Below are positions 16,956 through 53,204 of a DNA stretch of 64,000 nucleotides, in pieces. The notes beneath the pieces were generated by a model. That model was not told where the DNA came from, ran no database searches, and saw only the letters and a list, made by a program, of their open reading frames with translations. Position 1 is the first letter of the stretch. Every line of letters begins with the position of its first letter. Made by a program: the position numbers and the translations under genes. The DNA is from Bacteroidota bacterium (lineage in GTDB: Bacteria > Bacteroidota > Bacteroidia > Chitinophagales > Saprospiraceae): the NCBI GenBank assembly GCA_016124585.1, contig WGNL01000001.1, positions 186,001-250,000 on the forward strand, written 5' to 3'.

Positions 16956-19900
16956 TTATTCAGTCAAAAGCATCATGCGGGTGGCTGTTTCAGAGCCAGA
17001 TGCTAAACGATAGTAAAGTATTCCCGTTCCAAAACCAAGTTCATCCCGGCTAAGCCTAAATTCGTTGTAGCCTTTTGAGCAGGCTGCCTCCAGCAATTTC
17101 ACAACCTTGCCAGTAGCATCCGTTATGGTAAGTTGTGCCTTGCCTGCTGCTGGCAGCATGAACCCAATTACGGTTTCCTTGCTGAATGGATTTGGTCTGT
17201 TTTGAAACAATTCAAAATCGCTAATTGACTCGTTTTCAACGAGTTGCAAACGTATATTGTGCAATTCTCCCTGTCGGTCGTAAGCTTCGGTTTTCGTAAA
17301 CTTGTCACTCAGCCAAAGTGCCTCATCTGGTCGCAAATTAGTTTTAGCCCTAAAAATGAGCGTAAAGTCTGCAAGTTCTGGGTTCCTTTCGCCGTGCTCG
17401 TTCCAACTAGCCGTGATTGCGCCTTCCGCCAATTTCCCGAAGCCAAAATTTGAAGCCGTTGCTTCCCCCTCACCAACTTCCACGAACTCCAATTTGTCCG
17501 TGTCGAAGCCCATTGTGAACTGGTAGCCAAGTACTTCAAAGTCCATTGCCCGGAAACTTAGGCTACAAGTTTGCCCTGCTTCCAAATACGGGTCTTTGGT
17601 CGTAAAAATGAGGGTTTCGGCACTTCGTTCTTCGCTTTCTTCACCATTGAAATTGTAGGAAGCGTTCACGTCACCAATTTTTACCGCCACAAAATCTGCA
17701 TCAAGTACCTCGGCAGGTAAGTCGTTGATATTGATGATTTCTGGAAAATCCTCAAACCAAGGGTTGGATGGAACAGGGAAAACGTAATGCTTGTCCACAA
17801 ACCGCCAGGAAGTGTTGCTCGGGAAGTCGGTATTGATGTGCAAAATCAGTTTGCGAAGTTCCACCAAATCAAAAGTTGAAATGGTTTTGGAATTGTTCAC
17901 GTCTGCAGCAATCATCTTGTAGGGTGAATCCAACAGTTCGATATTGAGGATGTGCTGGCTCATTTTCACAATATCGTATGTAGAGACACCTTCCAAAGGA
18001 TTATCATCCTTGTTGGGCACGAGGGTTACATCCGTGCCAACCGGTACTGTCGGGAAATAAAAACTTCCAGTTGCACCAGTCATGACCTGCCCATTTGAAC
18101 CGTTAAACCCAACATTTACGCCACTTACTGGAACATTGTTTTCGTTGAAAATTTGCCCACCCAGATGAACCACTAAAGTATCATCGTCGCAGCTGTTATT
18201 GTTGTCCTGAATGGTCACGGTTGTTTCACAAAAATCTTGGTTACCCGCCTCATCTGTGAACCAAACCTGAACAGTGTCGTCGCCCACATCTTCGCACATA
18301 AAAATCATGACCGTGTCATTGATGTTTGGAGAAAATGAGACGTGGAGAATATTTGAACAATTGTCGGTGCTGCCAGCATCCAGTTGGTTTGCATTGACGG
18401 GTACCATCGGTGGTGAAACAGGCATTAGTTCGGTCACCAATGGGGCACAGTAGATATTCGGTGCTTTGCAATCTTTGACTTCAAAAGTGTCCCGGCAAAT
18501 GGCAGTGTTGTTGCAGCCGTCGTTCGCCGTGAAAGTCGTGATGAAAGTACCTGGTCCTGTTGTGAAAGGCCCAAACCCACTACCAAGTCCAGGTGTATTG
18601 GCCGTGATAGTGACTTGGCTGCTACAATCCATCACTGTCGGCTGAGGAATCGTAAATGTAGCTGCGCAAATCGAAGTGTCCTGAATGCAAACATCTGGGA
18701 CGGTGCAGCTCACAAACACCGGTGCTACATTATCGATCACCATGATAGTCTGCTGGTAAGTGATGAAGCCATCCCAAGGGTCTGTATCAGGGTCTGTGTC
18801 GGGGTTGAACTGCTGATTGGCTTGGTTGGCGTTAGGTTGCTGCGTGGCAGTCCAACTATCCCTAAAAGTTCGGTTGTCACAATCGCCATCTCCATCCAAA
18901 TCACATTGCGGGAACGGAAGGCCAAGTTGACTTTCTGGAACTTCTACCACTTCCTGGTCTGCTACCGCTCCTTGAGTGCACCAGTTGATGACAGTCCAAG
19001 TTCGGATGAACTTGTAGCAGGCACCCGGTACGGTTTCAAAAAGGCCATCCAAATGCGATACTGCAATCATTTCACAGGTTTCGTAAAAAACGGTTGGTTC
19101 CCCAAAATTCGGCAAGGATTGGCCGCAGTTCACGGTGATATCGGCAGGGAAATTCACTACAAAATCAGAGACATGGTCAACAAAAACCCTTTGGGTACAG
19201 ACATCTGATTCTTGGCCCTGTGCATCGGTTGCCTTCCATTTACGAGTGATGGTTCCTTCTTTGCATTGTGTGAAATTATCGGAATATGTCCGGGTTACCA
19301 CCATGCTCGTGCAGTTGTCCGCAAAAACAGGCTGGCCGAACTGAGCATCCAATAACTGGCTTTTTGCTGTTTGATTATTGCCAAGTGCTGCCAGCTGGGT
19401 TTCGTAATTGTCAGCGTAAAAGTCACAAGTAATCCGCTGGTTCGGTGGACACGAAACCAAAACCGGAGGCTGCTTATCATTCACGTTCACCTGAACCATG
19501 CAGTCATTGAAGTTTCCGAAACAATCGAATGCCCGGAACACCACCATAATTGGACTGTTTGCTACATCCTCGCAGCAAAACACCACTGAAGGACCGAATA
19601 CAGTATCGTCATGGCCATCGTTGCAGGAGTCAGTCATGCGGCGTACCTCAAAATGGTGCAAGCAACAATTATCAGTGCTGCCAGTATTGAAAACGCTGGC
19701 CAATACTGTGGCTGTTGGGTTTTGCCCTGAAGGCAAATCCACCTCAGTGAAGCTGATGCACACTGCCGTAGGTGTTATGTCGTCTAAAACTGTCACTGGA
19801 ACTGTAATGGACGTTGAGTTGCCGCAGGCATCTGTTGCAATATAAGTTACTGGGTGCGTACCAATTCCCAATCCAGGCGCAGGGATGGTGCCTCCATTTT

Positions 19901-22900
19901 TACCATCCACGCCGTTGATATAAATAGCCTCACCAACGGTGGTAATAATTTGCACGGTTACAGCATTGCAATTGTCAGAAATGGTTGGCGGCAACAACAA
20001 GCCGGTTGATTTGCAGGGCTGTGGGTGCATCGCTGGGACATTGATGCTTACATTGAATGGCGCTCTAGTGATAGTCGGCGCTACTTTGTCCATCACTTTT
20101 ATCACTTGTACATTGTCCTCTCCTCCAACCCCAGTCGTGATGATTGCGCCAGTACACCAATCGATTACTGTCCAAGTTCTGATGATTTTGAAACTTGTTC
20201 CACATATTCCAATGGTCTGGTCTGAATGCAGCACATTGTATTTGCAAATGGTGCTTACGCTCACGTTTACTATGCCTGAACCAGTATTGGCAAGCGTTGT
20301 ATCTGGTAAAGTTGGGCTCACATCTATTCCCAATTCAATTGGGTCAACATCGACTATGCTAGGGTGCAGTTTGGTCGCATTAACAATTGAAGGATATGCA
20401 TTATACTGCGTACAACCCCAAGTAATGTCACCAGGGAAATCTACCGGAGGGCGGGTAACATTGATATTTTGGATGCAATTCACAGCAGTCATGTTCCCAT
20501 GATTGTCGGTGGCTTTGTAGGTTCGGCGGATGGTGTAGATGCCATCGTCACAAATATCATTGTCAATGACTTGATTGCCCACCAAGGTGACAACTGGATT
20601 TGGGTCACAATTATCGGTTGCTATTGGAGGGGGGATATTCGCAAGGTTTTCAGAGCAAAAGACGGTAACTGGCGCACTTGGACAATTGAAAACTGGTGCC
20701 AATTTGTCTTCCAAATAAATCTGGCCCCAACAGGAATTTTTGTAAACCTTGTCCTGAACCTTTACGGTCAAATATTGCCCGATGTAACTGCCACTGATTT
20801 CATGGATATTCGGTGTATTTGGGTTCAAATCTGCGACTGGCCCACCCCAAGCGTCAGTAACCATCAGTATTTCATAATAGCTGCCCAATGGGTAATTGTT
20901 GGCATTTATGCAACTAGGAATTTCTCCTTCCAACACCATGCCTGGTGTAAGCCAGATTTCGCAGTTTTGATTCAGGGAAACTTGGAGCAAGTCATTGCAG
21001 GAAATGCTGCTGTTCAATTGGCTCCAACAGTTGGTGAGAAGGGTAGGGTCGTTGCTACCGCCAGTGTCTCCTACCCAACCTGGGTTAGTCGAGTTTGGAA
21101 TATAACCCACGTCTGAAAGGTCATTAGCGGAAATAAAAGTACTACAAGTGCCTACACCAGAAGCGGAAATTTGTGCCTGATTTTTTGGAATTGCCGGGGC
21201 GCCAGGTGCATCAGGATTTACTTCAAAACGGAATTGAATGACAAATACTTGTCCGGGTTGAAGTACGCCATCTCCATTTAGAAGATTGCCAAGGCCAGCA
21301 TAGCCAATGTTTATAGTTGGATTTACATCGGCAGTCGTTAAAGTTCCGTGTGCACCCACTGCTACTACTTGCGGTGCCTGTGTGATGCCGACGAATCCTG
21401 TGCCAAGGTTGGTTGCAGCGCTTAAATTGTCAACTAGGTTAAAATTGCCGAGTGCGACATTTCCTGTGTTTTCAACGATGAGTTCGGTGATTACATCAAA
21501 ATTGCCCGCTACACCACTTGTCGAACATTCAATACCAGCGAAGTTTTTAGCGATGCGAATGTCGGCTGGAATCGATTGTACGGTGAAAGTCTGGCTACAT
21601 GTTGTGAAAAGCGGTGCACAAGTACTTTGGTAGATGAAAGTAACTGTTGTGCTTCCACCACAAGCACTTGGCGGGCCAAAATTATTATTTGTTAATTGCC
21701 CATTACAACCACCACTGGCACTAGCGCTTGCAAGCCAAGCGGTAAATATCGAATCAACTTCAGCTTGCGACATACCTGGGGGCAATGAAATTGGCGCTGG
21801 ACAATTCAAGACAACAGGTGCAGGTGCGGTTACGGAGAAGGAGGCTTGGCAGGTAACATCAGGTTCACAACTGCTCGTGACCGTAAAAGTGACCACATTA
21901 TTTCCGCCACAAGCATCAGGGCTAGGGCCAGAATTATTGGATAGTTGTGCGTTGCAACCTCCTGAAGAAGTCACCGAGTTTAGCCAATTGGCATATTTTG
22001 TATCAATGTCTGATTGTGATTGACATGCGGCCTCTACGACATCCATTGGGCAACTCAGCACGACTGGCGCAGGGGTATTCACAGTAAAATTCCTAGAGCA
22101 CGTTTGTGTTGCTTGGCAGGTATTCGTCACGGTAAATGTAACAGTCGTAGTTCCACCACAAGCTGCTGGTGCGCCCGTGTTGTCATCTGTCAAAATTGCA
22201 TTACAACCTCCGCTGACAGTAGCCATCGCCAACCATGCGGCAAAAGCTGCATCAATATCAGCTTGGGATTGGCATGCTGCCAAGACAGTATCCACTGGGC
22301 AAACAAAAACCAAGATTGGTGCTGCAGTCACTGTAAAAGTAGCTTGGCAGGTAGCAGGTGCTTCACAATCGCTTATCACAGTGAAAATTACCGTGGTGCT
22401 GCCGCCACAAGCAAGTGGAGCGCCTGTATTGTCATCCATCAAAACACTGTTGCAACCTCCGCTGAAGCTTACAGTTGCCAACCAGTTTGCGAAGGCCAAG
22501 TCAATGTCAGCTTGAGTTTGGCATGCTGCTACTGTGGTATCGTTCGGGCATGTCAAAACTATAACAGGCGCTGGAGAAACGGAGAATGTTGACTGGCAGG
22601 TAACTGGCACTTCGCAACCGCTTGTTGCGGTAAAGGTTACTGTTGTACTCCCACTGCAAGCCAATGGAGCACCCGTATTGTCATTGCTCAAAACCGTATT
22701 GCAGCCTCCATTGGCCGAAGACAAAGCTAGCCATGCTGAAAATATTGAGTCCACATCGGCTTGTGTTTGACATGCATCTAAGTTTAAATCATTTGGGCAA
22801 TTCAAAACTACTGCTGGTGCTGCAGTCACAGAAAATGTTGCCATACAATTTACAGCTGTTTCACAACCGTTGTTCACCGTAAACGTAACGGTCGTGCTGC

Positions 22901-25154
22901 CACCACATGCTGGTGGTGCGCCTGTGTTGTTGTCAGACAAGGCTCCATTGCAACCGCCATTTGTGCTTGCTGTTGCCAACCAATTTGCGAATGCCAAGTC
23001 AATGTCAGCTTGCGACTGGCAGGCGGCTACCGTCAAGTCGGTGGGGCAGGTCAAAATCACCGGAGGTGCATCAGTCACCGTGAAAGTTGCTTGGCAGTTT
23101 ATCGGTGCTTCGCAACTGCTGTTTGCGGTAAATGTAACGGTCGTGCTGCCTCCACATGCAGGCGGTGCGCCTGTGTTGTCGTCCATCAAACTGCTGTTGC
23201 ATCCATCGCTGAAACTTGCTGTTGCCAACCAATTTGCGAAGGCCAAGTCAATGTCAGCTTGCGTCTGGCAGGCGGCTACCGTCAAGTCGGTGGGACAGGT
23301 CAAAATCACCGGAGGTGCATCAGTCACCGTGAAAGTTGCCTGGCAGCTTGTTGGTGCTTCGCAACTGCTGTTTGCGGTAAATGTAACGGTCGTGCTGCCT
23401 CCACATGCAGGCGGTGCACCTGTGTTGTCGTCCATCAAACTGCTGTTGCACCCACCGCTGAAACTTGCTGTTGCCAACCAATTTGCGAATGCCAAGTCAA
23501 TGTCAGCTTGCGACTGGCAGGCAGCTACCGTCAAATCGGTGGGGCAGGTCAAAACGACTGCTGGTGCTGGCGTGATGCTAAATGTTGCAGTGCAAGATGT
23601 CATGTTGTTGCAAACATCTGTAGCCGTAAAGTACACCACAACACTACCACCACAAATATCAGGAGGCATTTCTAGGCTAAGGTCAGTGACAGTTGGCGTG
23701 CCACAGTCATCGGTAGCAGAAAAACCCGCTAACCAGTTTGCAAAAGCCATATCAACTGCATCTTGTGTCATACAACTGCCGAGATTCATGTCCATTGGGC
23801 ATGTCACAACGGGAGGGGTATTGTCGTCAACTGAAACATCCAGCATGCAAAAATTCATGCAAGGGCCGTCAGACACGGTCAGGGAAAGGCTAAACCCACC
23901 GCCACAAGTGCCGGCTGCATTTACCATTACTGATTGCCCATCTGTCGGTCCGACAATTGTGCCGTTCCCTGATATATCCCACTGATAAGAACTCATGCCA
24001 ACTGGACCTGAATAAATGATATTCGTGGCTGCAGGACATACCTCACTCGCACCTGAAATCAGGCAGTTTGGTGGTGGCAGGCAACAATTTGGTGCTACTC
24101 CTGAAACAAAAGCAGTACAATCATTGGGGTTGGATGGATCGACGCAGGACCCATTGGGGGCAATTGCGATTGAGATATTATAAGGTGTTCCGTTCGGATA
24201 GGTTAATGAAATGACTCCAGTCGTTGGGCCACCCGAACCGATATTCGTTAAACAAACTCCTGCTGAGGGTGAATTTAAAGCGTTAGGGTCAGTACCGACA
24301 TAATTTCCATTTATCCCTGAAATCGGTACGTTTACCGTATAGGTGCCATCTGGGTTGCAGGTAGTGACGACTGGCTCGGTATTTAGGACACATAATGGTG
24401 CTCCATCACCACAACCAAAACGTGCTTTAAAATTATTGATGTCCAGGTCATTATCACCCAGCTGATCCCAGATGATGAGGTACCAGTTTGATGCTTCTGG
24501 AAAATTTGTGATAGGCAAGGAATTCCAGCTATTGGAAGACTCTACACCACAAACATAGAATTCAAGGTTTCCACAATCACCACTTTGGTAGTGCGGTGCT
24601 GGGCCAGTTCCTGTAGTTGAAGTTACTGATCTGTACAATGCCCATCCAATGTCGTCCGATGCATCATTGTCATTGAATTGAATGTCAAATGAGCCTGCAT
24701 TAGGTCTTACATCAAAATTAAAGTAAATAATAGGTGCACCTGGGGTAGGATTTACAGGTGACGGTATTGGATTGCCAGTGCTAGGATCTATGCAATTTCC
24801 AACGTTAATTAAAAACGCATCTGGGTTGTAAACACAGTTGTACTCAGTCATAATATTTGATTGAGTCTCAGCTGAATTCCCACATTTTACGATACCTTTT
24901 GGTACATAATTATTTGGTGGGTTTTCATTTACAGTTCCATTTGGGTTCCAAGCAGCACCTTGTGTCCACCGTTGCGAACATTCGCAGGGGGTATCATTTT
25001 GGGCAAAAAGTTTAGGTGCTGGACCCGACAGAATAACAAGGAAAAGCAAACCTAATCTGAGAAGAAGAGGACTGTGCAGCGCTTGATCGGCAATATTTTG
25101 GGTCAAGGTGGATATTGATATCCAGCTGCTTTTGTGAATAGAGGAATTTTTCAT
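16956..25154 (-). CDS. giant T9SS surface protein with HYR-like tandem repeats, dockerin/cohesin-like domains
   Basis: A 2732-residue protein. The N-terminal signal segment reaches about residue 51 (PAPKLFAQ). Residues about 52-440 are a Cys-rich region. About 445-1198 hold nine tandem repeats of roughly 83 residues with the pattern LTCPxDLTVAACQxQADID, then FANWLA, GGCN, NTGAPxACGGSTTVTFT and CQATFTV. A DUF11-like domain follows (IAKNFAGIEC, ENTGNVALGNFNLVDNL), then more Cys-rich HYR-like domains. About 2340-2500 is a dockerin-like part (VSTYDIVKMSQHIL, AADVNNSKTISTFDLVELRK). A cohesin-like domain (about 2520-2640) precedes a type A T9SS sorting domain (FQNRPNPFSKETVIGF, ending RMMLLTE). It is probably an exported adhesin or matrix protein with many disulfides. 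Ligands are unknown. Confidence 0.9.
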   Translation of the reverse strand: MKNSSIHKSSWISISTLTQNIADQALHSPLLLRLGLLFLVILSGPAPKLFAQNDTPCECSQRWTQGAAWNPNGTVNENPPNNYVPKGIVKCGNSAETQSNIMTEYNCVYNPDAFLINVGNCIDPSTGNPIPSPVNPTPGAPIIYFNFDVRPNAGSFDIQFNDNDASDDIGWALYRSVTSTTGTGPAPHYQSGDCGNLEFYVCGVESSNSWNSLPITNFPEASNWYLIIWDQLGDNDLDINNFKARFGCGDGAPLCVLNTEPVVTTCNPDGTYTVNVPISGINGNYVGTDPNALNSPSAGVCLTNIGSGGPTTGVISLTYPNGTPYNISIAIAPNGSCVDPSNPNDCTAFVSGVAPNCCLPPPNCLISGASEVCPAATNIIYSGPVGMSSYQWDISGNGTIVGPTDGQSVMVNAAGTCGGGFSLSLTVSDGPCMNFCMLDVSVDDNTPPVVTCPMDMNLGSCMTQDAVDMAFANWLAGFSATDDCGTPTVTDLSLEMPPDICGGSVVVYFTATDVCNNMTSCTATFSITPAPAVVLTCPTDLTVAACQSQADIDLAFANWLATASFSGGCNSSLMDDNTGAPPACGGSTTVTFTANSSCEAPTSCQATFTVTDAPPVILTCPTDLTVAACQTQADIDLAFANWLATASFSDGCNSSLMDDNTGAPPACGGSTTVTFTANSSCEAPINCQATFTVTDAPPVILTCPTDLTVAACQSQADIDLAFANWLATASTNGGCNGALSDNNTGAPPACGGSTTVTFTVNNGCETAVNCMATFSVTAAPAVVLNCPNDLNLDACQTQADVDSIFSAWLALSSANGGCNTVLSNDNTGAPLACSGSTTVTFTATSGCEVPVTCQSTFSVSPAPVIVLTCPNDTTVAACQTQADIDLAFANWLATVSFSGGCNSVLMDDNTGAPLACGGSTTVIFTVISDCEAPATCQATFTVTAAPILVFVCPVDTVLAACQSQADIDAAFAAWLAMATVSGGCNAILTDDNTGAPAACGGTTTVTFTVTNTCQATQTCSRNFTVNTPAPVVLSCPMDVVEAACQSQSDIDTKYANWLNSVTSSGGCNAQLSNNSGPSPDACGGNNVVTFTVTSSCEPDVTCQASFSVTAPAPVVLNCPAPISLPPGMSQAEVDSIFTAWLASASASGGCNGQLTNNNFGPPSACGGSTTVTFIYQSTCAPLFTTCSQTFTVQSIPADIRIAKNFAGIECSTSGVAGNFDVITELIVENTGNVALGNFNLVDNLSAATNLGTGFVGITQAPQVVAVGAHGTLTTADVNPTINIGYAGLGNLLNGDGVLQPGQVFVIQFRFEVNPDAPGAPAIPKNQAQISASGVGTCSTFISANDLSDVGYIPNSTNPGWVGDTGGSNDPTLLTNCWSQLNSSISCNDLLQVSLNQNCEIWLTPGMVLEGEIPSCINANNYPLGSYYEILMVTDAWGGPVADLNPNTPNIHEISGSYIGQYLTVKVQDKVYKNSCWGQIYLEDKLAPVFNCPSAPVTVFCSENLANIPPPIATDNCDPNPVVTLVGNQVIDNDICDDGIYTIRRTYKATDNHGNMTAVNCIQNINVTRPPVDFPGDITWGCTQYNAYPSIVNATKLHPSIVDVDPIELGIDVSPTLPDTTLANTGSGIVNVSVSTICKYNVLHSDQTIGICGTSFKIIRTWTVIDWCTGAIITTGVGGEDNVQVIKVMDKVAPTITRAPFNVSINVPAMHPQPCKSTGLLLPPTISDNCNAVTVQIITTVGEAIYINGVDGKNGGTIPAPGLGIGTHPVTYIATDACGNSTSITVPVTVLDDITPTAVCISFTEVDLPSGQNPTATVLASVFNTGSTDNCCLHHFEVRRMTDSCNDGHDDTVFGPSVVFCCEDVANSPIMVVFRAFDCFGNFNDCMVQVNVNDKQPPVLVSCPPNQRITCDFYADNYETQLAALGNNQTAKSQLLDAQFGQPVFADNCTSMVVTRTYSDNFTQCKEGTITRKWKATDAQGQESDVCTQRVFVDHVSDFVVNFPADITVNCGQSLPNFGEPTVFYETCEMIAVSHLDGLFETVPGACYKFIRTWTVINWCTQGAVADQEVVEVPESQLGLPFPQCDLDGDGDCDNRTFRDSWTATQQPNANQANQQFNPDTDPDTDPWDGFITYQQTIMVIDNVAPVFVSCTVPDVCIQDTSICAATFTIPQPTVMDCSSQVTITANTPGLGSGFGPFTTGPGTFITTFTANDGCNNTAICRDTFEVKDCKAPNIYCAPLVTELMPVSPPMVPVNANQLDAGSTDNCSNILHVSFSPNINDTVMIFMCEDVGDDTVQVWFTDEAGNQDFCETTVTIQDNNNSCDDDTLVVHLGGQIFNENNVPVSGVNVGFNGSNGQVMTGATGSFYFPTVPVGTDVTLVPNKDDNPLEGVSTYDIVKMSQHILNIELLDSPYKMIAADVNNSKTISTFDLVELRKLILHINTDFPSNTSWRFVDKHYVFPVPSNPWFEDFPEIININDLPAEVLDADFVAVKIGDVNASYNFNGEESEERSAETLIFTTKDPYLEAGQTCSLSFRAMDFEVLGYQFTMGFDTDKLEFVEVGEGEATASNFGFGKLAEGAITASWNEHGERNPELADFTLIFRAKTNLRPDEALWLSDKFTKTEAYDRQGELHNIRLQLVENESISDFELFQNRPNPFSKETVIGFMLPAAGKAQLTITDATGKVVKLLEAACSKGYNEFRLSRDELGFGTGILYYRLASGSETATRMMLLTE
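21560..23820 (-). repeat. nine tandem repeats of about 249 bp inside the giant gene
   Basis: Each unit encodes about 83 residues. The best conserved copies are spaced exactly 249 bases apart, as shown by GCTGTTGCCAACCAATTTGC at 22969, 23218 and 23467. Adjacent units around 22970-23590 are almost identical, which points to recent duplication or gene conversion. The outer units have diverged more. Confidence 0.88.
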
Positions 25155-43500: not shown

Positions 43501-46500
43501 ATGAAATCCAGCATCCTTTACCACGCTAAGCATGTCCTGATTGCTGCCCTGTTATTGATTGGGGCAACAACTACGAAAGCACAAATCGATTTCCGGATTG
43601 GTTTGGGTACCGATGGTCAGACGTACACCGTCTATGCCAAGCCAAAAGCAACCATAAGTCCTTCAACAAATACCTTGACAGGTACTGGACAGGTTACGCT
43701 GATTGTACCACATGGGTTTGTTTATACAGCACTTACAAGTTTGAAAGGAACTTGGAGTGCTTCGACTGTTATGGCCCCTGTTGAGAATCCCAATTTTGAT
43801 TACATATCAGTTGGTTTGCTCAGCGATGGCGCTTTCCCTAATAATATTCAATATATTACAGGGCAAGAAACAGCATTATTCAAACTCAAAAGGACTTCCG
43901 CATGCACAGGTGGTGTTACCTTGATTGAAAACGATGACCCATTTTATGCTCCAAACTCAGTTGGGTCCAATCCGGGTAATGATATTGGCGTGATAGATAT
44001 TGGGAAGCCAGGGTTTCCTTTCTATATATGGGTGGCCAACTATGGCTCAGCTCCCGGCTGCACGGATTCTGATGCAGACGGCCTTTACAATTTTATCGAA
44101 GATAAAAATGGTAATGGAGTAGTGGACCCAGGTGAAACCAATCCCAACAATCCAGATACTGATGGCGACGGGTTGTCGGATGGCACTGAAGATGCTAACC
44201 ATAATGGTGTAATTGATGCTGGTGAATCAGATCCAACCAATAAATGTAGTCCTAATGCTACTTTCCCTATTTGTGATTTTGATGGTGACGGCATCATCAA
44301 CTCAGAAGATACGGATGATGACAACGATGGCGTTGCCGATGCACAAGACGTGCAAGATTACAATCCTGATAGCGATAGTGATGGGGATGGAATCAGTGAT
44401 GATGATGAAACTGGGAATGATGGCCATTACGACCCTGGCACTGATACAGATCCATTAAACCCTTGCGATCCAAACCAGAATGCGACGGCTTGTACTAGCA
44501 CGGATGCTGATGGTGACGGTTATTTTGCGGATGTAAATCCGAATGACCCAACCTATGACCCAGACGACAACTTACCATGCGTACCTGACCAAACGGTAAG
44601 TACCTGTGACTTTGATAGTGACAGCTTCATCAATGGTGATGATTTGGATGATGACAATGATGGTGTGCCTGACGTTTCAGACGTGGATCCTTGGAACCCA
44701 AACAGTGACAGTGACAGTGATGGTCTTTCGGACATTATTGAAACCGGTGGTGATGGTGTTTACAACGAATTAGTAGATACCAATCCATTGGATCCTGACA
44801 CTGACAACGATGGGATCAGCGACGGAACTGAGGACACTGATAAAGATGGCACCACTGATGTTGGTGTGGAAACAGATCCACTGGTGGCTGATACGGATGG
44901 TGATGGCTTGGAAGATGGTGAAGAAGATACCAACTTCAATGGACATCTTGACTTGAACGAGAGCGATCCACTAGACGATTGTGACCCAGTTGCGGTGGGC
45001 CCTTCCTGTGATTATGACATGGATGGCACCATCAATGAATTGGATCCAGACGACGATAACGATGGTGTAATGGATGGTCCGGACGTCAATGATTTTGACC
45101 CAGATAGCGATAGCGACGGTGATGGAATAGTAGATAAAACGGAGACTGCAAATGGCACCAACCCTTTGAATGCTTGCGATCCAAACCCAAGTGTTTCAGC
45201 TTGTATTCCAGATGATACAGATGGTGACCTTTTCTTTGAGAACTATCCAACTGGCCATCCAAAATTTGACCCAGATGATACGAATCCATGCGTGCCTAGC
45301 AATGCAGCATTGAAATGCGATTTTGATGGTGACGGATTGACAAACAATGTTGACCCTGATGATGACAATGATGGCGTATCGGATCTGTACGACAGCGATG
45401 ATTACAATCCGAATAACGATAGTGATGGTGATGGATTGCCAAATATTGTAGAGGTGGGGGCAAATGGAGTGTACAATCAAGGTATTGACACTAATCCATT
45501 GAACGACGATACCGACAATGATGGCCTTAAGGATGGCTGCGAGGATAAAAACCACAACGGCCAGAAAGATCCAGGTGAAACCAGTCCATTGCTTGCTGAC
45601 ACTGACGGAGACGGTATTAAGGATGGCGTTGAAGATGCTAACCATAACTGTGTGTTGAACACGGGTGAAAGCGATCCACTTGACAAATGCAGTCCAAACA
45701 ATACGCTGCCTGAGTGTGACTTTGATGGCGATGGATTGACCAATGCCGTTGACCTAGACGACGATGCAGATGGTGTTGATGATGTCAGCGATGTTAATCC
45801 ATTCGATCCTAATAGTGATAGCGATGATGATGGACTTTCTGATAACCTTGAAACTGGCGAAGACGGCGTTTACGATGTAGATGTTGATACGAATCCATTG
45901 GATGATGATACTGATGATGATGGTATCAAAGATGGGGTTGAGGATGCCAACCATAATGGCAACCGTGAGCTTACAGAAACGGATCCACTTAATCCAAATA
46001 CGGACGGCGATAGCCTTTCGGATGGTGATGAAGATATCAACCACAACGGAAGTATTGATCCGGGCGAGTCTGACCCACTTGATCCATGTTCGCCATTTTC
46101 CACAGGGGGCACTTGTGCCTTCCAGGACTTGGATAATGATGGCTATTTCTCTGAGGTGCCACAAGGGGATCCAAATTATGACCCTAATGATAATGATGCC
46201 TGCGTGCCTTCAAACCAATCGCCTACCTGCGATTTTGATGGCGATGGATTCCCGAATCAGAATGACCTTGACGATGACAACGACGGTGTATCTGACGCTC
46301 AGGATTCTGATGATTATAATGCATACAATGACAGTGACAATGATGGTTTGCCTAATATCATTGAAACTGGTGGTGACGGTGTCTACAATAATGGAATAGA
46401 TACCCATCCACTAAACCCTGACACAGACGGTGACGGAATAAAAGACGGGATAGAGGACAAAAACAAAGACGGACACTATGATCCTCTGACAGAAACGAAT

Positions 46501-49500
46501 CCACTCGTTAAAGATTCTGACGGGGATGGTATTGATGATGGCATTGAAGACAGCAATCAGAATGGTGTGGTTAACCAAGGCGAATCTGACCCTAAGGACA
46601 AATGCAGTCCTTATACCAATCTTTCACCTTGTGTAGCTGCAGATAATGATGGCGATGGTTATTTTGGTGATTACCCACCTAACCACCCAGATAGAGACCC
46701 TGACGACTTCAATGCATGTATTCCAGATCATACCAGCAATCTCTGTGATTTTGACAATGATGGTGTTGTAAATGGTCAGGATTTCGACGACGACAATGAT
46801 GGTGTTGCTGACGCAGATGACGTAAATGCCTACGATCCTAATTCGGATTCTGATGGGGATGGACTCTCCGATAATACAGAGACTGGTGGAAATGGTGTAT
46901 TTGATTTAAGTGAAGGCGATAGCGATCCACTGGATCCATGTAGCCCGAACTTGAACAACGTTGCTTGTAGCGGTACCGATGATGACCACGACGGTTACTA
47001 TGCTAACTTTACTTCCGATGACCCACAGTATGACCCGGATGACGCTGACCCTTGTGTGCCTAATTGCTCACTTGGTTTGTGCGACTTCGATGGCGACGGT
47101 AGCATCAATAGCATCGACAATGACGATGACAACGATGGTGTGAAGGATATTAACGAAGGACCTGACCCTGGTGTTAATTGCGATCCCAACAATGATACTG
47201 ATGGTGATGGAATTCCGAACAATGTCGAGACACATGGCGATGGTCAATACAATGCTGGTGTGGATACAAACCCACTTAGCAAGGACTCTGACAATGATGG
47301 TGTCGAAGATGGCAAGGAGGATTTGAACCACAACGGAATTCAAGATCCAGGTGAAACCAACCCTCTAAGTGCCGATTCTGATGGCGATGGCCTGACAGAT
47401 GGTGCAGAGGATCTGAACAAAAACGGCATTCTCGATCCGGGTGAAAGTGATCCATTGGATAAATGCGACCCAATCGCTACTGGAGGTGACTGTGATTTTG
47501 ACGGAGATGGTCTGGCAAACAATGTTGACCCTGACGATGACAACGATGGTGTGCTTGATCCAGCGGATGAGGATGACTTTAATGTCAACAGTGATTCAGA
47601 CCATGATGGGTTGGCGGATGGAGCAGAGACTACACTTGGCTCTGACCCATTGAATCCTTGTAGCCCAAGCCCAACTGCGCCAAACTGCCATCCAATTGAC
47701 AATGATGGTGATGGTTTTGCAGCAAATTATCCGTCAACAGCGCCGAATTATGACCCAGATGATACAAAGCCTTGTATCCCAAGTCCTGCGGCAAACTCTT
47801 GTGACTTCGATCAGGATGGTAGCATAAATGGTATCGATAACGATGACGACAACGATGGTGTCTCTGATTTAGACGATATTGACCCGTACGATCCGAACAG
47901 CGATACCGACTCCGATGGAATTGCTGACAACGTGGAAACTCAGGGTGACCATCAATACAATGTTGGTACCGACAGTAACCCATTGAATGCTGATACCGAT
48001 GGTGACGGACTGCCAGATGGTACGGAAGATGCCAACCACAATGGTAAAAAGGATGCCACTGAAACCAGTGCTGTACTTGCGGATACTGACTCAGATGGCT
48101 TAAGTGATTTCACAGAGGTGAATGATGGAACCGATCCTCTTGACCAATGTGACCCGAATGCCACACTTGCAAGTTGTGATTTCGACGGCGACAACCTTGC
48201 AAATGATGTTGACCAGGACGATGACAATGATGGCGTTGCTGACAATGATGATGTCGATCCTTTTGACCCACAAAGCGACAGCGACAACGATGGAATCGTT
48301 GATATTGACGAAACCACAGCTGGAAGCGATCCACTTAATGCTTGCGATCCAAGCACAACAGCTTCGGCTTGTCAACCAACTGATGAGGATGGGGACGGAT
48401 TTTTCAAAAACTACCCAGCGAACGACCCATTATTCGATCCGAACGACACCAACCCATGTGTTCCTAGCGTGGCAGCTGGTACCTGTGATTTTGACAATGA
48501 CGGCCTGATTAACTCTGTCGATTTGGATGACGATAAAGATGGTGTAGCGGATGTTGATGATATTGATGATTATAATCCAAACAGTGACTCCGATGGTGAT
48601 GGTATCTCAGATACCAAAGAAACCAAAGGTGACGGCGCTTATAATGCTGGTATCGACTCAAATCCATTGGATAAAGATACCGATGATGACGGCATTGAAG
48701 ATGGTGTCGAAGATAAGAACCATGATGGTTATGTCAATGCTGGTGAGACCAGCCCTATAGATGACGATTCTGATAACGACGACTTTAAGGACGGCGTGGA
48801 GGATGCTAATCACAATGGTATCTTAGATCCAGGCGAAAGTGATCCGCTTGACGCTTGTGACCCTAATAATACTTTGGCTTTCTGCGATTTCGATGGGGAT
48901 GGCCAATTGAATAACCTTGACTCTGATGACGATAATGATTGCTTGGATGATACAGTGGATGCTGACCCATTCGATCCAAACAGTGATACAGACCAAGATG
49001 GCATTTCTGACGCAGATGAGTGCCTAGCTGGTTCGGATGCGCTCAATCCTTGTGACCCAGCTCCAGTTGGTCCACTTTGCCAAGGCCAAGTTGACGTGGA
49101 TGGTGACGGTTACTATGCTGATGTGACTTCTGATAATCCAGCATATGACCCAGATGACGCAAACCCTTGTGTGCCAAAAGTTTCGGTCGGTGTCTGCGAC
49201 TTTGACAACGATGGTCTGATAAACAGCGTTGACCCGGATGACGATAACGATTGTGTGAACGACGCTCAAGATGTTGACGACTACAACACACAAAGCGATA
49301 GTGACAACGATGGTTACGCTGATGCTGAAGAATGCCAAAATGGAACAGATCCACTCGACCATTGCGACCCTACACCTTCTGCCCCAGATTGTATCGTTTC
49401 GGGTGATACGGATGGAGATGGTTACGATGGTACACTAAGCTCTACCGATCCGCTTTACGACCCAGACGAAACAAATCCTTGTGTGCCAAGCAATATGTCA

Positions 49501-51825
49501 GGTGCTTGCGATTTCGACCAGGATGGTGAAGTAAACAGCGTGGATGCTGACGACGATGGTGACTGTGTCGATGACATATCAGACGTAGACCCATACAATG
49601 CGCAAAGCGATTCAGATGGTGATGGCGATTCAGATGCTACAGAGTGCCAAAACGGTACTGATCCTCTCAACGCCTGCGACCCACATAACGGAACAGTTGA
49701 CTGTGATTGTGACAATGATGGCATCGCCAACGGGGATGACCCTGACGATGATAACGATGGGGTACTTGATGCAGATGATGCAGAAGATTGCAATCCAAAC
49801 AACGATACTGACCATGATGGCATCTCAAATATTGATGAGACTACAGCTGGTACAGATCCAATGGATGCCTGTGACCCAGACCCGAACTCAGTTGCCTGTC
49901 AGAATCCTGACAATGATGGTGATGGCTTCGATCCAAATTTGAGTGTAAATGATCCACTGTACGATCCAGACGACGACAATCCTTGTGTTCCTAATCCAGC
50001 TTTTGGAGGTTGTGATTTCGATGGTGACGGAATGGTTAACAGTGAAGACCCAGACGACGACAACGATTGCGTCAACGATGCTGATGATGTTGATGACTAC
50101 AACACAGCAAGTGATAGTGACTTTGATGGAATCGCTGATGGCGATGAGTGCCTGAATGGTACCAACCCGCTAGACAAATGTGACCCTAACAGCACTTTCG
50201 GTAGTTGCGACTTCGACGGAGATGGTTTGGCAAACAACCAAGACCCAGACGACGACAACGACTGCGTGAACGACGCTGATGATGTGGACGATTTCAACCC
50301 ACAAAGTGATTCTGATTTGGATGGAATTAGTGATGCTGATGAATGTCAAGCTGGCACTGACCCAACAAGTCCATGTGACCCAGATCCGAACAGCTTAGCA
50401 TGTACTGGCGAGGATGTAGACGGTGATGGCTACATCGCTAATGCACCAACGGACAGTCCACTTTTCGACCCCGATGATAATGACCCTTGTGTTCCTGACC
50501 ATGAAGTTGGCGTGTGTGATTTCGATGGTGACGGTATCGTGAATATGGATGATGCTGATGATGATAACGACGGCGTAAATGACAACGATGACGTTGATGC
50601 ATTCAATCCTGATAGCGATAGTGACGGTGATGGAATCACCGACAATGTGGAAACAGGTGGTGACGGAATTTATGATGTTGACATCGACTCAAATCCACTT
50701 GACACTGACACTGATGATGATGGGTTGCTGGACGGTACTGAAGATGCTAACCACAATGGAGTCGTTGACTTACATGAAACTGACCCAGTCAGTGCCGATA
50801 CGGATGGTGATAGTCTAGCGGACGGTGTAGAGGATGCAAACCATAACGGTCATCTAGATGCAGGTGAGTCAGACCCAACTAATCCAGACGATGATAACGA
50901 TGGAATCCTGACAATTGATGAAGACACCAACGGCAATGGTGACCTGTACGATGACGATAACGATTTCGATGGAACACCAGATTTCCTTGACCCAGATCCA
51001 TTTGCTTTTGTCAAAATGAAAGCGTTCTTGCAAGGTTCTTTGGTTACAGCGACAGGTCTGATGAAGGATGAATTACGCACAACCTTAGATGCTGATGGCA
51101 AGCCACTGTTGCCACTAACAGAGCCATATACTGATTTGGCTATGCCGAACGGAACCAAACCATTCGTTCACCTTGGCAGTGGCGGTGAGACAATTCAGCC
51201 AAGCATATTGGCGGTCACAGGTCCTGATGCGATTGTGGACTGGGTATTCCTTGAGCTACGTAGCAAATTGAACCCAGCCAGTAGGGTGTTGACTCGTGCA
51301 GCGCTGATTCAAAGGGATGGAGATGTTGTGGACCTTGACGGGGTAAGTCCGGTACTGTTCAAAGCTAAAACGGAAGACTACTACGTTGTAATTCGCCATC
51401 GAAATCACTTGGGTGCAATGACGTTGAACCCAATACCAGTGACACGGAACAAAGCTGAAGCACAATTAATTGACTTCACTAGTCCTAATACCCAAACATA
51501 TGGCACGAATGCCCAGAAAATAATGGGCAGCTACCGGGCACTTTGGGCTGGTAACGCCAATATGGACGGCAGGGTAGTTTACCAAGGAAGTGGTTCTGAC
51601 AGAGACCACATCTTCTTCGATGTGTTCCTTGACCCAGATAATACGAACAGTAGCTTCAACTTTATTGGTCACGGCTACAAGACAAGCGATACGGATATGA
51701 ACGGCAAGTATATCTTCCAAGGTTCTGGCAATGACGTTGATAATATGATATTCTTCAACGTGCTTCAACACCCAGGAAATACTTCCTTCGCTATCAACTT
51801 CATTATTTACCAGCAGCTTCCTTAA
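43501..51825 (+). CDS. giant acidic surface protein with 19 thrombospondin-type-3-like calcium-binding blocks
   Basis: A 2774-residue secreted protein. The signal peptide is residues 1 to about 28 (ending TTKAQ). Residues about 29-185 form a domain shared with the protein at 52371 (TGTGQVTLIVP, NFDYISVGLL, GQETALFKL, PNSVGS). About 190-2495 is an Asp/Asn/Gly-rich array of 19 blocks, each opening with CDFDGDGxxN or a variant and continuing DDDNDGVxD, SDSDGDGxxD, and often NPLxxDTDxDGxxDGxED and ESDPLDxC. These are thrombospondin type 3 calcium sites, with paired Cys. The C-terminal 270 residues are a distinct globular region (FLQGSLVTATGLMKDELRTT) ending in two repeats of about 50 residues with DMNGKYIFQGSGNDVDNMIF. 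No type A T9SS domain is visible. It is likely a rigid, calcium-stabilised surface filament. Function unknown. Confidence 0.88.
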   Translation: MKSSILYHAKHVLIAALLLIGATTTKAQIDFRIGLGTDGQTYTVYAKPKATISPSTNTLTGTGQVTLIVPHGFVYTALTSLKGTWSASTVMAPVENPNFDYISVGLLSDGAFPNNIQYITGQETALFKLKRTSACTGGVTLIENDDPFYAPNSVGSNPGNDIGVIDIGKPGFPFYIWVANYGSAPGCTDSDADGLYNFIEDKNGNGVVDPGETNPNNPDTDGDGLSDGTEDANHNGVIDAGESDPTNKCSPNATFPICDFDGDGIINSEDTDDDNDGVADAQDVQDYNPDSDSDGDGISDDDETGNDGHYDPGTDTDPLNPCDPNQNATACTSTDADGDGYFADVNPNDPTYDPDDNLPCVPDQTVSTCDFDSDSFINGDDLDDDNDGVPDVSDVDPWNPNSDSDSDGLSDIIETGGDGVYNELVDTNPLDPDTDNDGISDGTEDTDKDGTTDVGVETDPLVADTDGDGLEDGEEDTNFNGHLDLNESDPLDDCDPVAVGPSCDYDMDGTINELDPDDDNDGVMDGPDVNDFDPDSDSDGDGIVDKTETANGTNPLNACDPNPSVSACIPDDTDGDLFFENYPTGHPKFDPDDTNPCVPSNAALKCDFDGDGLTNNVDPDDDNDGVSDLYDSDDYNPNNDSDGDGLPNIVEVGANGVYNQGIDTNPLNDDTDNDGLKDGCEDKNHNGQKDPGETSPLLADTDGDGIKDGVEDANHNCVLNTGESDPLDKCSPNNTLPECDFDGDGLTNAVDLDDDADGVDDVSDVNPFDPNSDSDDDGLSDNLETGEDGVYDVDVDTNPLDDDTDDDGIKDGVEDANHNGNRELTETDPLNPNTDGDSLSDGDEDINHNGSIDPGESDPLDPCSPFSTGGTCAFQDLDNDGYFSEVPQGDPNYDPNDNDACVPSNQSPTCDFDGDGFPNQNDLDDDNDGVSDAQDSDDYNAYNDSDNDGLPNIIETGGDGVYNNGIDTHPLNPDTDGDGIKDGIEDKNKDGHYDPLTETNPLVKDSDGDGIDDGIEDSNQNGVVNQGESDPKDKCSPYTNLSPCVAADNDGDGYFGDYPPNHPDRDPDDFNACIPDHTSNLCDFDNDGVVNGQDFDDDNDGVADADDVNAYDPNSDSDGDGLSDNTETGGNGVFDLSEGDSDPLDPCSPNLNNVACSGTDDDHDGYYANFTSDDPQYDPDDADPCVPNCSLGLCDFDGDGSINSIDNDDDNDGVKDINEGPDPGVNCDPNNDTDGDGIPNNVETHGDGQYNAGVDTNPLSKDSDNDGVEDGKEDLNHNGIQDPGETNPLSADSDGDGLTDGAEDLNKNGILDPGESDPLDKCDPIATGGDCDFDGDGLANNVDPDDDNDGVLDPADEDDFNVNSDSDHDGLADGAETTLGSDPLNPCSPSPTAPNCHPIDNDGDGFAANYPSTAPNYDPDDTKPCIPSPAANSCDFDQDGSINGIDNDDDNDGVSDLDDIDPYDPNSDTDSDGIADNVETQGDHQYNVGTDSNPLNADTDGDGLPDGTEDANHNGKKDATETSAVLADTDSDGLSDFTEVNDGTDPLDQCDPNATLASCDFDGDNLANDVDQDDDNDGVADNDDVDPFDPQSDSDNDGIVDIDETTAGSDPLNACDPSTTASACQPTDEDGDGFFKNYPANDPLFDPNDTNPCVPSVAAGTCDFDNDGLINSVDLDDDKDGVADVDDIDDYNPNSDSDGDGISDTKETKGDGAYNAGIDSNPLDKDTDDDGIEDGVEDKNHDGYVNAGETSPIDDDSDNDDFKDGVEDANHNGILDPGESDPLDACDPNNTLAFCDFDGDGQLNNLDSDDDNDCLDDTVDADPFDPNSDTDQDGISDADECLAGSDALNPCDPAPVGPLCQGQVDVDGDGYYADVTSDNPAYDPDDANPCVPKVSVGVCDFDNDGLINSVDPDDDNDCVNDAQDVDDYNTQSDSDNDGYADAEECQNGTDPLDHCDPTPSAPDCIVSGDTDGDGYDGTLSSTDPLYDPDETNPCVPSNMSGACDFDQDGEVNSVDADDDGDCVDDISDVDPYNAQSDSDGDGDSDATECQNGTDPLNACDPHNGTVDCDCDNDGIANGDDPDDDNDGVLDADDAEDCNPNNDTDHDGISNIDETTAGTDPMDACDPDPNSVACQNPDNDGDGFDPNLSVNDPLYDPDDDNPCVPNPAFGGCDFDGDGMVNSEDPDDDNDCVNDADDVDDYNTASDSDFDGIADGDECLNGTNPLDKCDPNSTFGSCDFDGDGLANNQDPDDDNDCVNDADDVDDFNPQSDSDLDGISDADECQAGTDPTSPCDPDPNSLACTGEDVDGDGYIANAPTDSPLFDPDDNDPCVPDHEVGVCDFDGDGIVNMDDADDDNDGVNDNDDVDAFNPDSDSDGDGITDNVETGGDGIYDVDIDSNPLDTDTDDDGLLDGTEDANHNGVVDLHETDPVSADTDGDSLADGVEDANHNGHLDAGESDPTNPDDDNDGILTIDEDTNGNGDLYDDDNDFDGTPDFLDPDPFAFVKMKAFLQGSLVTATGLMKDELRTTLDADGKPLLPLTEPYTDLAMPNGTKPFVHLGSGGETIQPSILAVTGPDAIVDWVFLELRSKLNPASRVLTRAALIQRDGDVVDLDGVSPVLFKAKTEDYYVVIRHRNHLGAMTLNPIPVTRNKAEAQLIDFTSPNTQTYGTNAQKIMGSYRALWAGNANMDGRVVYQGSGSDRDHIFFDVFLDPDNTNSSFNFIGHGYKTSDTDMNGKYIFQGSGNDVDNMIFFNVLQHPGNTSFAINFIIYQQLP

Positions 51826-51859
51826 GCTAATGGTATGCGAACCATAAGTTCCTATTAAG

Positions 51860-51906
51860 TGCAAGGGAATTCAATATCATATAAAATTGAAATTGATTCC
51901 CTTGCA
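51860..51906 (+). terminator. probable transcription terminator hairpin after the giant gene
   Basis: TGCAAGGGAATTCAAT (51860-51875) pairs with ATTGATTCCCTTGCA (51892-51906) with one bulged base. It begins 35 bases past the stop. Only a short TTT follows, so termination strength is uncertain. Confidence 0.6.
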
Positions 51907-52370
51907 TTTAACGGTGAAAAATGGTTTAAGACAAAGTGGACGGTTTGTATTTATTGATATTGAATCAATTCATGATAAATTATGTGGTAAGGGCCTTTGA
52001 TTATTAGGGTTTTTGCAACAGCAAATCGTCTGCTTTTTTTTTGAAGTTGTTTCTAATTTTTTTAGCCAATAAGCGTTTATTTAAGCTATTGTATGTCTGT
52101 TTTTTATTGATTGCAATAATTAAATATTAGCAATAAAAAATTAAGATTTACACTTGAATAACCTTAAAAAACGGCATGGTTTTCGACTGATATAAAACGT
52201 TCAAATTAAGTTTGCTTGATTCAGAAATATGACTTAACTTTGGGCACTTATTTCAGAAGATTCCCTCCTTTACTAAAATTAAGATTCCCCTTCAAATTGG
52301 CTTTTATTCCCCCCACAAGCATAAACTAGGTTGTCAAACCATTTCTTAAAAAGACATAAAAACTGTAACA
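51907..52370. other. AT-rich intergenic region and leader of the partner gene
   Basis: From the hairpin at 51860-51906 to the ATG at 52371 there is no supported gene. The left part is strongly AT-rich. A good promoter lies at 52211-52242. The expected transcript leader, about 120 bases, contains TTTCAGAAGATTCCCTCC (from 52251) and AAGATTCCCC (52281-52290), similar to the leader of the giant gene at 43501. Confidence 0.6.
52211..52242 (+). promoter_or_regulatory. promoter of the T9SS partner gene at 52371
   Basis: TTTG (52211-52214), 20 bases, then TAACTTTG (52235-52242), an exact TAnnTTTG with an intact -33 element. Transcription would begin near 52249. Confidence 0.6.
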
Positions 52371-53204
52371 ATGAACAAAGTAAACACTCTGTGTGCAGCA
52401 GCCCTGCTGTTCCTTTCTTCAGCTTCCATCGCACAAGTAAAGTTTAAGCTTTCATTCAGCCAAGAAACTGAGCGCTATACCGTTTCAGTTGTACCAATGG
52501 AGAATTATGTAAATCCACAAAACATCACTGGTACTGGTCAAGTGACGATCAAAGTTCCGACCAACAACTTCGACCCAGTTGACATCGAAAGCAGCCTCAC
52601 TGGCATGGTTTGGGAGGCAAATGCCCGTAACAACTCGCCAGCAGAGTCACCAGATTACGACTACATTTCTTTTGGCCTCAATATCCAGGGTATCGCTTAT
52701 CCTGACTATGTACAAGGTCAAGAACTTCCACTTTTCAGCTTCCAAAATGCTTATGGTTGCAATGGCGCCATCACTTTGGTTGATAACTTTTCTGATGAAT
52801 TTATGCCACCAAACAGTCAAAATGCCAATATCGGCAACGCACTCACAATCTTGGGTGCAGGTGGTGAGGCATACGGAGGCATAGAAGGTAGCGCAGTTGT
52901 GAATTGTGACCCAAATGCTGTCCTTTCAGCCAAGGAAGAAATTGGCCTCGGTGGTTACAGCATCTTCCCTAACCCAGCTAGTGACTATGTCAATGTGAAA
53001 ATTGACTGGAAAGGTGATGCAAGCGATGCCAGCATCCTCATCGTAGATGCAACCGGCAAGCAAGTAATGACTTCACAAACAAACTTAGCTGCAGGCAAAA
53101 ACATTCAGAAAATTAAAGTTTCTGAGCTTGTTCCGGGCAGCTACTGGGTTTACCTCGCCGGCAACGACTGGAAAATTGGCCTCGACCGTTTCTCCAAGCA
53201 ATAA
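52371..53204 (+). CDS. small T9SS surface protein sharing the N-terminal domain of the calcium-repeat giant
   Basis: A 277-residue secreted protein. The signal peptide is residues 1 to about 21 (SSASIAQ). Residues about 22-185 match the N-terminal domain of the giant at 43501 in order and spacing: ERYTVSVVP, ITGTGQVTIKVP, SPDYDYISFGL, VQGQELPLFSF, GCNGAITLVDN, MPPNSQ. The last 75 residues are a type A T9SS sorting domain (FPNPASDYVNVKIDW, VPGSYWVYLAGNDWKIGLDR). It thus looks like the giant protein with the repeat array replaced by a sorting signal. It may be an anchor, cap or partner of the giant. It has its own promoter. I do not recognise the shared domain as a named family. Confidence 0.85.
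   Translation: MNKVNTLCAAALLFLSSASIAQVKFKLSFSQETERYTVSVVPMENYVNPQNITGTGQVTIKVPTNNFDPVDIESSLTGMVWEANARNNSPAESPDYDYISFGLNIQGIAYPDYVQGQELPLFSFQNAYGCNGAITLVDNFSDEFMPPNSQNANIGNALTILGAGGEAYGGIEGSAVVNCDPNAVLSAKEEIGLGGYSIFPNPASDYVNVKIDWKGDASDASILIVDATGKQVMTSQTNLAAGKNIQKIKVSELVPGSYWVYLAGNDWKIGLDRFSKQ

Follow-up and report, generated by a model that had tools for sequence, protein, structure and literature searches.

A giant calcium-repeat protein and its small type IX-tailed neighbor in Saprospiraceae: two unannotated domains that may form a surface docking pair

The window, that is, the whole stretch of 64,000 nucleotides analyzed here, encodes a giant protein and, downstream on the same strand, a small one (Table 1). 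Both open reading frames lie where the preliminary description had placed them, and two of its assignments are borne out by family models. The giant was said to contain a long calcium-binding array. Besides the D-x-[DN]-x-D-G motifs found by pattern search, Pfam recognizes 16 TSP3_bac stretches (50.6 bits against a cut-off of 25), which identifies the protein as a carrier of TSP3_bac repeats. The small protein was said to end in a type A sorting signal of the type IX secretion system (T9SS). Its C-terminus scores above the cut-offs of both Por_Secre_tail (Pfam, 48.2 bits versus 27) and TIGR04183 (NCBIfam, 27.8 versus 23) and thereby qualifies as type A T9SS cargo. Scans with Pfam and NCBIfam found no T9SS tail in the giant.

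The proposal that the two proteins share an N-terminal domain holds as well. A BLASTP alignment of the pair, a single comparison, shows 59 of 170 positions identical and 92 of 170 positive (E 1e-25), and the motifs noted in common are aligned: TGTGQVT, the V-P pair, DYIS-GL, GQE-LF, the C-G--TL--N stretch and PNS. The region had been recognized as no named family, and indeed no Pfam or NCBIfam family covers it; we call it the N-domain. The giant ends in a second unannotated domain, the C-domain, for which Pfam families and PDB sequences give no significant match. Its first part (about positions 1–188) accounts for most of the Bacteroidota matches listed, while its second part is a tandem D-x-[DN]-x-[DN]-G...QGxxND-type unit. 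The AlphaFold models of both domains are confident. That of the C-domain ends in loop–helix units, with helices predicted at 200–209 and 245–254 behind Asp/Asn-rich loops which contain an insertion.

Table 1. Features of the gene pair (window coordinates)
Feature	Position	Strand	Description
Giant surface protein ORF	43501..51825	+	2774 aa; N-domain, calcium-repeat array, C-domain; without recognized T9SS tail
Giant N-domain, residues 26-172	43576..44016	+	all-beta by prediction; model pLDDT 94.5
TSP3/DxDxDG calcium-repeat array, limits approximate	44062..50997	+	81 motifs by pattern
C-domain, 274 aa, unannotated	51001..51822	+	14 matches in own genome; model pLDDT 93.9
C-domain, second part	51535..51822	+	two D-x-[DN]-x-[DN]-G...QGxxND-type loops, predicted helix after each; dockerin-like layout
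Intergenic spacer, giant to small gene	51826..52370		545 bp
Small protein ORF	52371..53204	+	277 aa; N-domain, then a type A T9SS tail; putative receptor anchoring the C-domain at the surface
Small-protein N-domain, residues 20-168	52428..52874	+	homology to giant N-domain
T9SS type A sorting domain, residues 198-265 of small protein	52962..53165	+	Pfam match

The N-domain is far from confined to this pair. Profile searches count 21 copies in 13 ORFs of the 6.63-Mb genome to which the window belongs, and a domain private to the giant and its neighbor is therefore ruled out. These proteins end in Por_Secre_tail, in CHU_C or in no recognized tail; some contain Ig-like, SprB or PKD modules, and in some the N-domain stands in tandem. 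The preliminary description had held that a filler domain spread over many unrelated cargo proteins would undo its proposal, and the copy number and mixed tails go part of the way towards such a picture. Mixed architectures and tandem copies are also what binding modules display. The N-domain might accordingly be a CBM3-like carbohydrate-binding module present on many surface proteins, and the pair an adhesin operon encoding proteins that attach to one common polysaccharide rather than to one another. In Foldseek, the N-domain best matches a chitinase chain of C. perfringens (E 6e-4, TM 0.42), followed by CBM3b, both ahead of cohesins. Furthermore, the ORFs 3′ of the pair, with translations read by eye, resemble what we take to be polysaccharide-export genes. 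We nevertheless consider this explanation unlikely, as it accounts neither for the presence of the C-domain in all N-domain genomes of three sets nor for the recurrent order of a C-domain gene and then an N-domain gene, both described below.

The range of the N-domain is taxonomically narrow. Profile A2, built from the N-domains of the window's genome and known to miss at least one diverged copy (in genome G015), detects it in all 14 genomes of the genus (the window's own included), in one of 11 from other genera of the family and in none of 15 from other families. With the broader profile A4 (102 rows), it is found in 3 of the 395 genomes of a Bacteroidota sample. The N-domain scan yielded 65 loci, which are labeled Saprospiraceae, Saprospirales, unplaced Bacteroidetes/Bacteroidota MAGs, two Thiothrix genomes and one Spirosomataceae MAG; a separate set of 12 genomes was searched as such for the N-domain alone. 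The MAG labeled Spirosomataceae (L119) contains two divergent N-domain ORFs, and no C-domain was found in the 14 kb examined there.

Within the genus, a C-domain gene is followed by a small N-domain gene on the same strand in 13 of the 14 genomes, 12 being counted from the sequenced regions examined and one (G007) from coordinates only. In four genomes (G002, G004, G011, G012) the contig end truncates the upstream C-domain gene and leaves its N-terminus outside the sequence. The sole genome without the pair (G005) is 80% complete. The small-gene N-domains of the genus group, 12 of them distinct, form one clade with a support of 1.0. Since the genes flanking the pair in the window recur alongside it in several genomes, its conservation is partly a matter of ordinary gene order. 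At five other Saprospiraceae loci (L073, L084, L086, L087, L114), two giants with an N-domain and a C-domain precede the small gene. In the regions examined, none of the window's flanking genes was found around the pair at these five loci, at L123 or at L210; L211 shows a weak partial match to one flanking gene, and the sequence of L209 is too short to judge.

The same order appears in more distant Bacteroidota. An N-domain gene lies directly behind a C-domain gene in G276 (9 bp), G017 (29 bp), L123 (145 bp), G385 (twice, 67 and 51 bp) and G015. In G276, a complete C-domain gene of 347 aa without an N-domain precedes an N-domain protein with a Por_Secre_tail, and these are the only N- and C-domain copies detected in that genome. 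In G015, three C-domain genes precede an N-domain gene (E 1e-7 with profile A4, in the regions examined). Complete C-domain genes without a detected N-domain stand before the N-domain gene in G276, at two of the three positions in G015 and at L176 of G385; at G017, L123, L175 and the first G015 gene the C-domain gene is cut at its start and its N-terminus lies outside the sequence. The N-domain partner ends in Por_Secre_tail in G276, G015, G017, L123, L073 and L086, and in CHU_C in one G385 protein. At another locus (L050, 2–3404 and 5494–10722), four short C-domain ORFs stand in tandem, and behind them the same strand encodes a 1742-aa protein that contains two N-domains, Ig_7 domains and CHU_C.

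A comparable arrangement exists outside the phylum, in what we call the Thiothrix family, a working label for the family of genome G040, which holds the T. caldifontis locus. In 25 genomes of this family, a small N-domain gene encodes about 192–217 aa. A C-domain gene lies within 3 kb upstream of it in 19 of the 25 and an N-domain-containing gene within 600 bp downstream in 22. The usual run consists of a giant with a C-domain, the small N-domain protein, a protein composed of N-domain, TSP3 repeats and C-domain, sometimes one with two N-domains and a C-domain, and then an N-domain protein with IPTL-CTERM. An IPTL-type tail is present on an N-domain protein in 20 of the 25 genomes by motif, and all four proteins scored pass the IPTL-CTERM cut-off of NCBIfam; no anchor was seen on the small N-domain protein of this family. 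All 98 N-domains from the Thiothrix-family regions examined fall in one clade (support 0.979) in a tree of 242, and the 46 C-domains from these regions form one clade among 88. At four loci (L185, L191, L194, L199), a complete C-domain gene without a detected N-domain is followed by an N-domain gene. At L189, L195 and L197, some of the cluster's N-domain or C-domain genes are split into adjoining ORFs, as a result of either decay or an error in assembly. Each of the two phyla thus has proteins with the N-domain alone (receptor only), with the C-domain alone (ligand only) and with both, and the anchors differ.

These loci bear on the most direct reading of the shared domain, namely that N-domain binds N-domain and that the small protein acts, by this contact, as a seed or cap for the giant. 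The presence of the domain in both proteins and the retention of the pair in most of the genus agree with this reading. However, the N-domain of the giant is closer to other copies in its own genome (45% and 44% identity to two of them) than to that of its neighbor (37%). Moreover, the C-domain genes which precede an N-domain gene and are themselves free of a detected N-domain, in Bacteroidota and in the Thiothrix family alike, imply that shared N-domains cannot be the general link. Binding of N-domain to N-domain is therefore very unlikely in our view, and the C-terminal C-domain of the giant is the likely partner of the N-domain.

The distribution of the two domains across genomes was compared in three sets. 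Among 40 relatives, the N-domain is present in 15 and the C-domain in all 15, with C-domain matches in 5 more; counted at genus level, the co-occurrence is not significant (p 0.06). Of the 63 Thiothrix-family genomes, 25 contain the N-domain and 27 the C-domain with an overlap of 25, so that the C-domain occurs in 2 of the other 38 (Fisher p 1.4e-15, phylogeny ignored). In the Bacteroidota sample, 50 of the 395 genomes show some C-domain match and 4 a match to the last model position, and all three N-domain genomes are among these 4. Again with phylogeny ignored, p is 0.002 for any C-domain match and 3.9e-7 for the full-length criterion, which was chosen after the matches had been seen (3.9e-5 with the window's genome excluded). 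At most nine N-domain or six C-domain candidates per genome were scored in the phylum scans, so absence there is weaker evidence. The sample used for adjacency is non-random because several genomes were chosen for having both domains.

In the window's genome, 3 of 9 C-domain clusters lie within 10 kb of an N-domain gene, versus 0.27 expected under uniform placement and with the giant's own N-domain omitted (p 0.002; p 0.03 without contig C36, where one protein contains both domains). This proximity is no independent support, since only the C24 cluster remains once the studied pair and C36 are set aside. Exceptions to the pairing are also found. In the sequence examined, no N-domain gene follows L048, which encodes a 2236-aa protein of the same genome with an N-domain and a C-domain, nor seven loci like it (L089, L093, L095, L096, L104, L107, L127), nor the C-domain at L121, L124 and L198. 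Full-length C-domain matches are present in G299, G481 and G488 without a detected N-domain. Conversely, no C-domain gene was detected within 10 kb of the N-domain genes on C5, C11, C39, C40, C41 and C45:66 kb of the window's genome.

The C-domain could also have a function unrelated to its neighbor. Its tail might be an unrecognized outer-membrane secretion signal, and the small protein an unrelated T9SS cargo encoded in the same operon. The giant and the L048 protein both lack a recognized T9SS tail, and the matches in G018, among those listed of 64, span only about positions 4–188 of the C-domain, as if its last part were exchangeable. Yet the match runs through the C-domain tail in 27 of the 63 Thiothrix-family genomes, a lineage not known to have a T9SS, and a secretion signal would leave the co-occurrence with the N-domain unexplained. 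We regard this possibility as quite unlikely.

We return to the pairing of N-domain and C-domain. In our judgment, it is an even call whether they make up a docking system on the cell surface, one half each, that functions in the manner of cohesin and X-dockerin. Type IX secretion would export and anchor the small protein, whose N-domain would be displayed as a receptor. The giant would form a rod, which calcium-loaded TSP3 repeats would make stiff. Its C-domain, composed of a beta part and a tandem calcium-loop part, would dock on the N-domain of the small protein and so fix the giant to the outer surface. Physical binding of the two domains, its dependence on calcium, the location of the assembly on the surface and the adhesive or structural role of the rods are inferred. 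More speculatively, the giant, which has no T9SS tail of its own, may cross the outer membrane riding with the small protein. The two-part surface system of the preliminary description is favored by the conservation of the pair and by a similar pairing with a different anchor in another phylum, but the shared domain is probably not what joins the two proteins. Among the roles suggested for the small protein (cap, anchor or seed), that of an anchor fits best, and the genomic evidence points to its N-domain acting with the C-domain of the giant.

Cellulosomes combine an anchored receptor, a ligand module and proteins with both. Type II cohesin and X-dockerin (PDB 4u3s, 4wi0, 2b59, 4fl4) resemble the layout proposed for our pair: an anchored receptor module, a ligand in which two predicted calcium-loop/helix units stand behind a beta module, and some proteins with both modules. 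The predicted folds of the N-domain and the C-domain also show weak similarity to the respective partners. Of the 50 Foldseek matches listed for the N-domain, nine are type II cohesin chains, with weak scores (best cohesin E 0.045, TM at most 0.34). For the C-domain, no match reaches E ≤ 0.001. Ole e 1-type allergen chains rank first and second (E 0.015 and 0.073), and many other matches are transthyretin-like. Ranks three and four are 4u3s_B and 4wi0_B, also weak (E 0.13; TM 0.28 by query, 0.44–0.45 by target); 2b59_B and three 4fl4 chains are found lower. The entries 4u3s and 4wi0 are titled Coh-XDoc complexes and, judging from titles and chain lengths, chain A is presumably the cohesin and chain B the X-dockerin. 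The A chains of both entries are among the N-domain matches listed.

In contrast to these likenesses of layout, no sequence relation is detectable. Pfam scans at E ≤ 1 find neither cohesin (PF00963) in 102 N-domains nor dockerin (PF00404) in 29 C-domains, and PDB sequence searches with the two domains return neither family at E ≤ 10. In hhalign, the N-domain reaches a probability of 0.2% against 20 of the 25 Pfam cohesins of the window's genome, and the C-domain tail 0.7% against all 14 of its Pfam dockerins. By these searches, the N-domain is not recognizable as a cohesin from its sequence, nor the C-domain tail as a dockerin. Given this and the weak fold scores, we claim that the pair works like cohesin and X-dockerin, not that it is one. 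Further differences concern the C-domain loops, which are longer than those of the genome's dockerins (QGxxND insertion), and the cargo and anchors, which are calcium-repeat giants and T9SS or IPTL-CTERM tails, unlike those of cellulosomes. The same genome contains an apparent non-cellulosomal cohesin–dockerin set (L135–L173; 25 cohesin and 14 dockerin Pfam matches at E ≤ 0.01, the two kinds frequently lying together in one large protein). Its members are likewise large, and in them a stretch of dockerin lies close to one of cohesin, but by hhalign they form a separate set.

Giant secreted proteins are numerous in Bacteroidota, and the means by which those lacking a recognized sorting tail stay on the surface is unclear. 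If the docking model is true, a small T9SS-tailed receptor and a dockable giant would explain surface retention for one class of giants, and the same scheme in gammaproteobacteria would show it to be portable between export systems. Two unannotated domain families are gained which can be tested directly, and they may provide a natural receptor–ligand pair besides cohesin/dockerin for protein display. A wider version of the model is rather doubtful. Here, the N-domain of one giant would dock the C-domain of the next into head-to-tail fibers, with the calcium-stiffened arrays as rods and a T9SS- or IPTL-CTERM-tailed N-domain protein as the base. The same modular fiber, with differing anchors and from a docking pair not recognized before, would then be built by Bacteroidota and by the Thiothrix family of sulfur bacteria. 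In the titles and abstract openings covered, no description of the N-domain/C-domain pair was found.

Other TSP3-rich surface proteins are represented by MtsC and MtsD of Myxococcus (NF047638, NF047639) and by CglD (NF033765); no literature on these proteins was found. MtsC has a MYXO-CTERM tail according to its NCBIfam name. The MtsC/MtsD models give partial matches to Thiothrix-family proteins, below the equivalog cut-off, and CglD matches the giant in nine stretches with 334 bits, below its cut-off of 400. Lastly, two more large proteins are encoded on the minus strand of the window. In a second giant ORF (16956–25154, 2732 aa), no Pfam family is found at E ≤ 0.001, and a weak Dockerin_1 match lies at 17841–17987 (minus strand; E 0.009, below the cut-off). 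The ORF at 12921–16490 encodes a 1189-aa protein with eight SprB-repeat stretches, an SdrD_B-like domain and a Por_Secre_tail.
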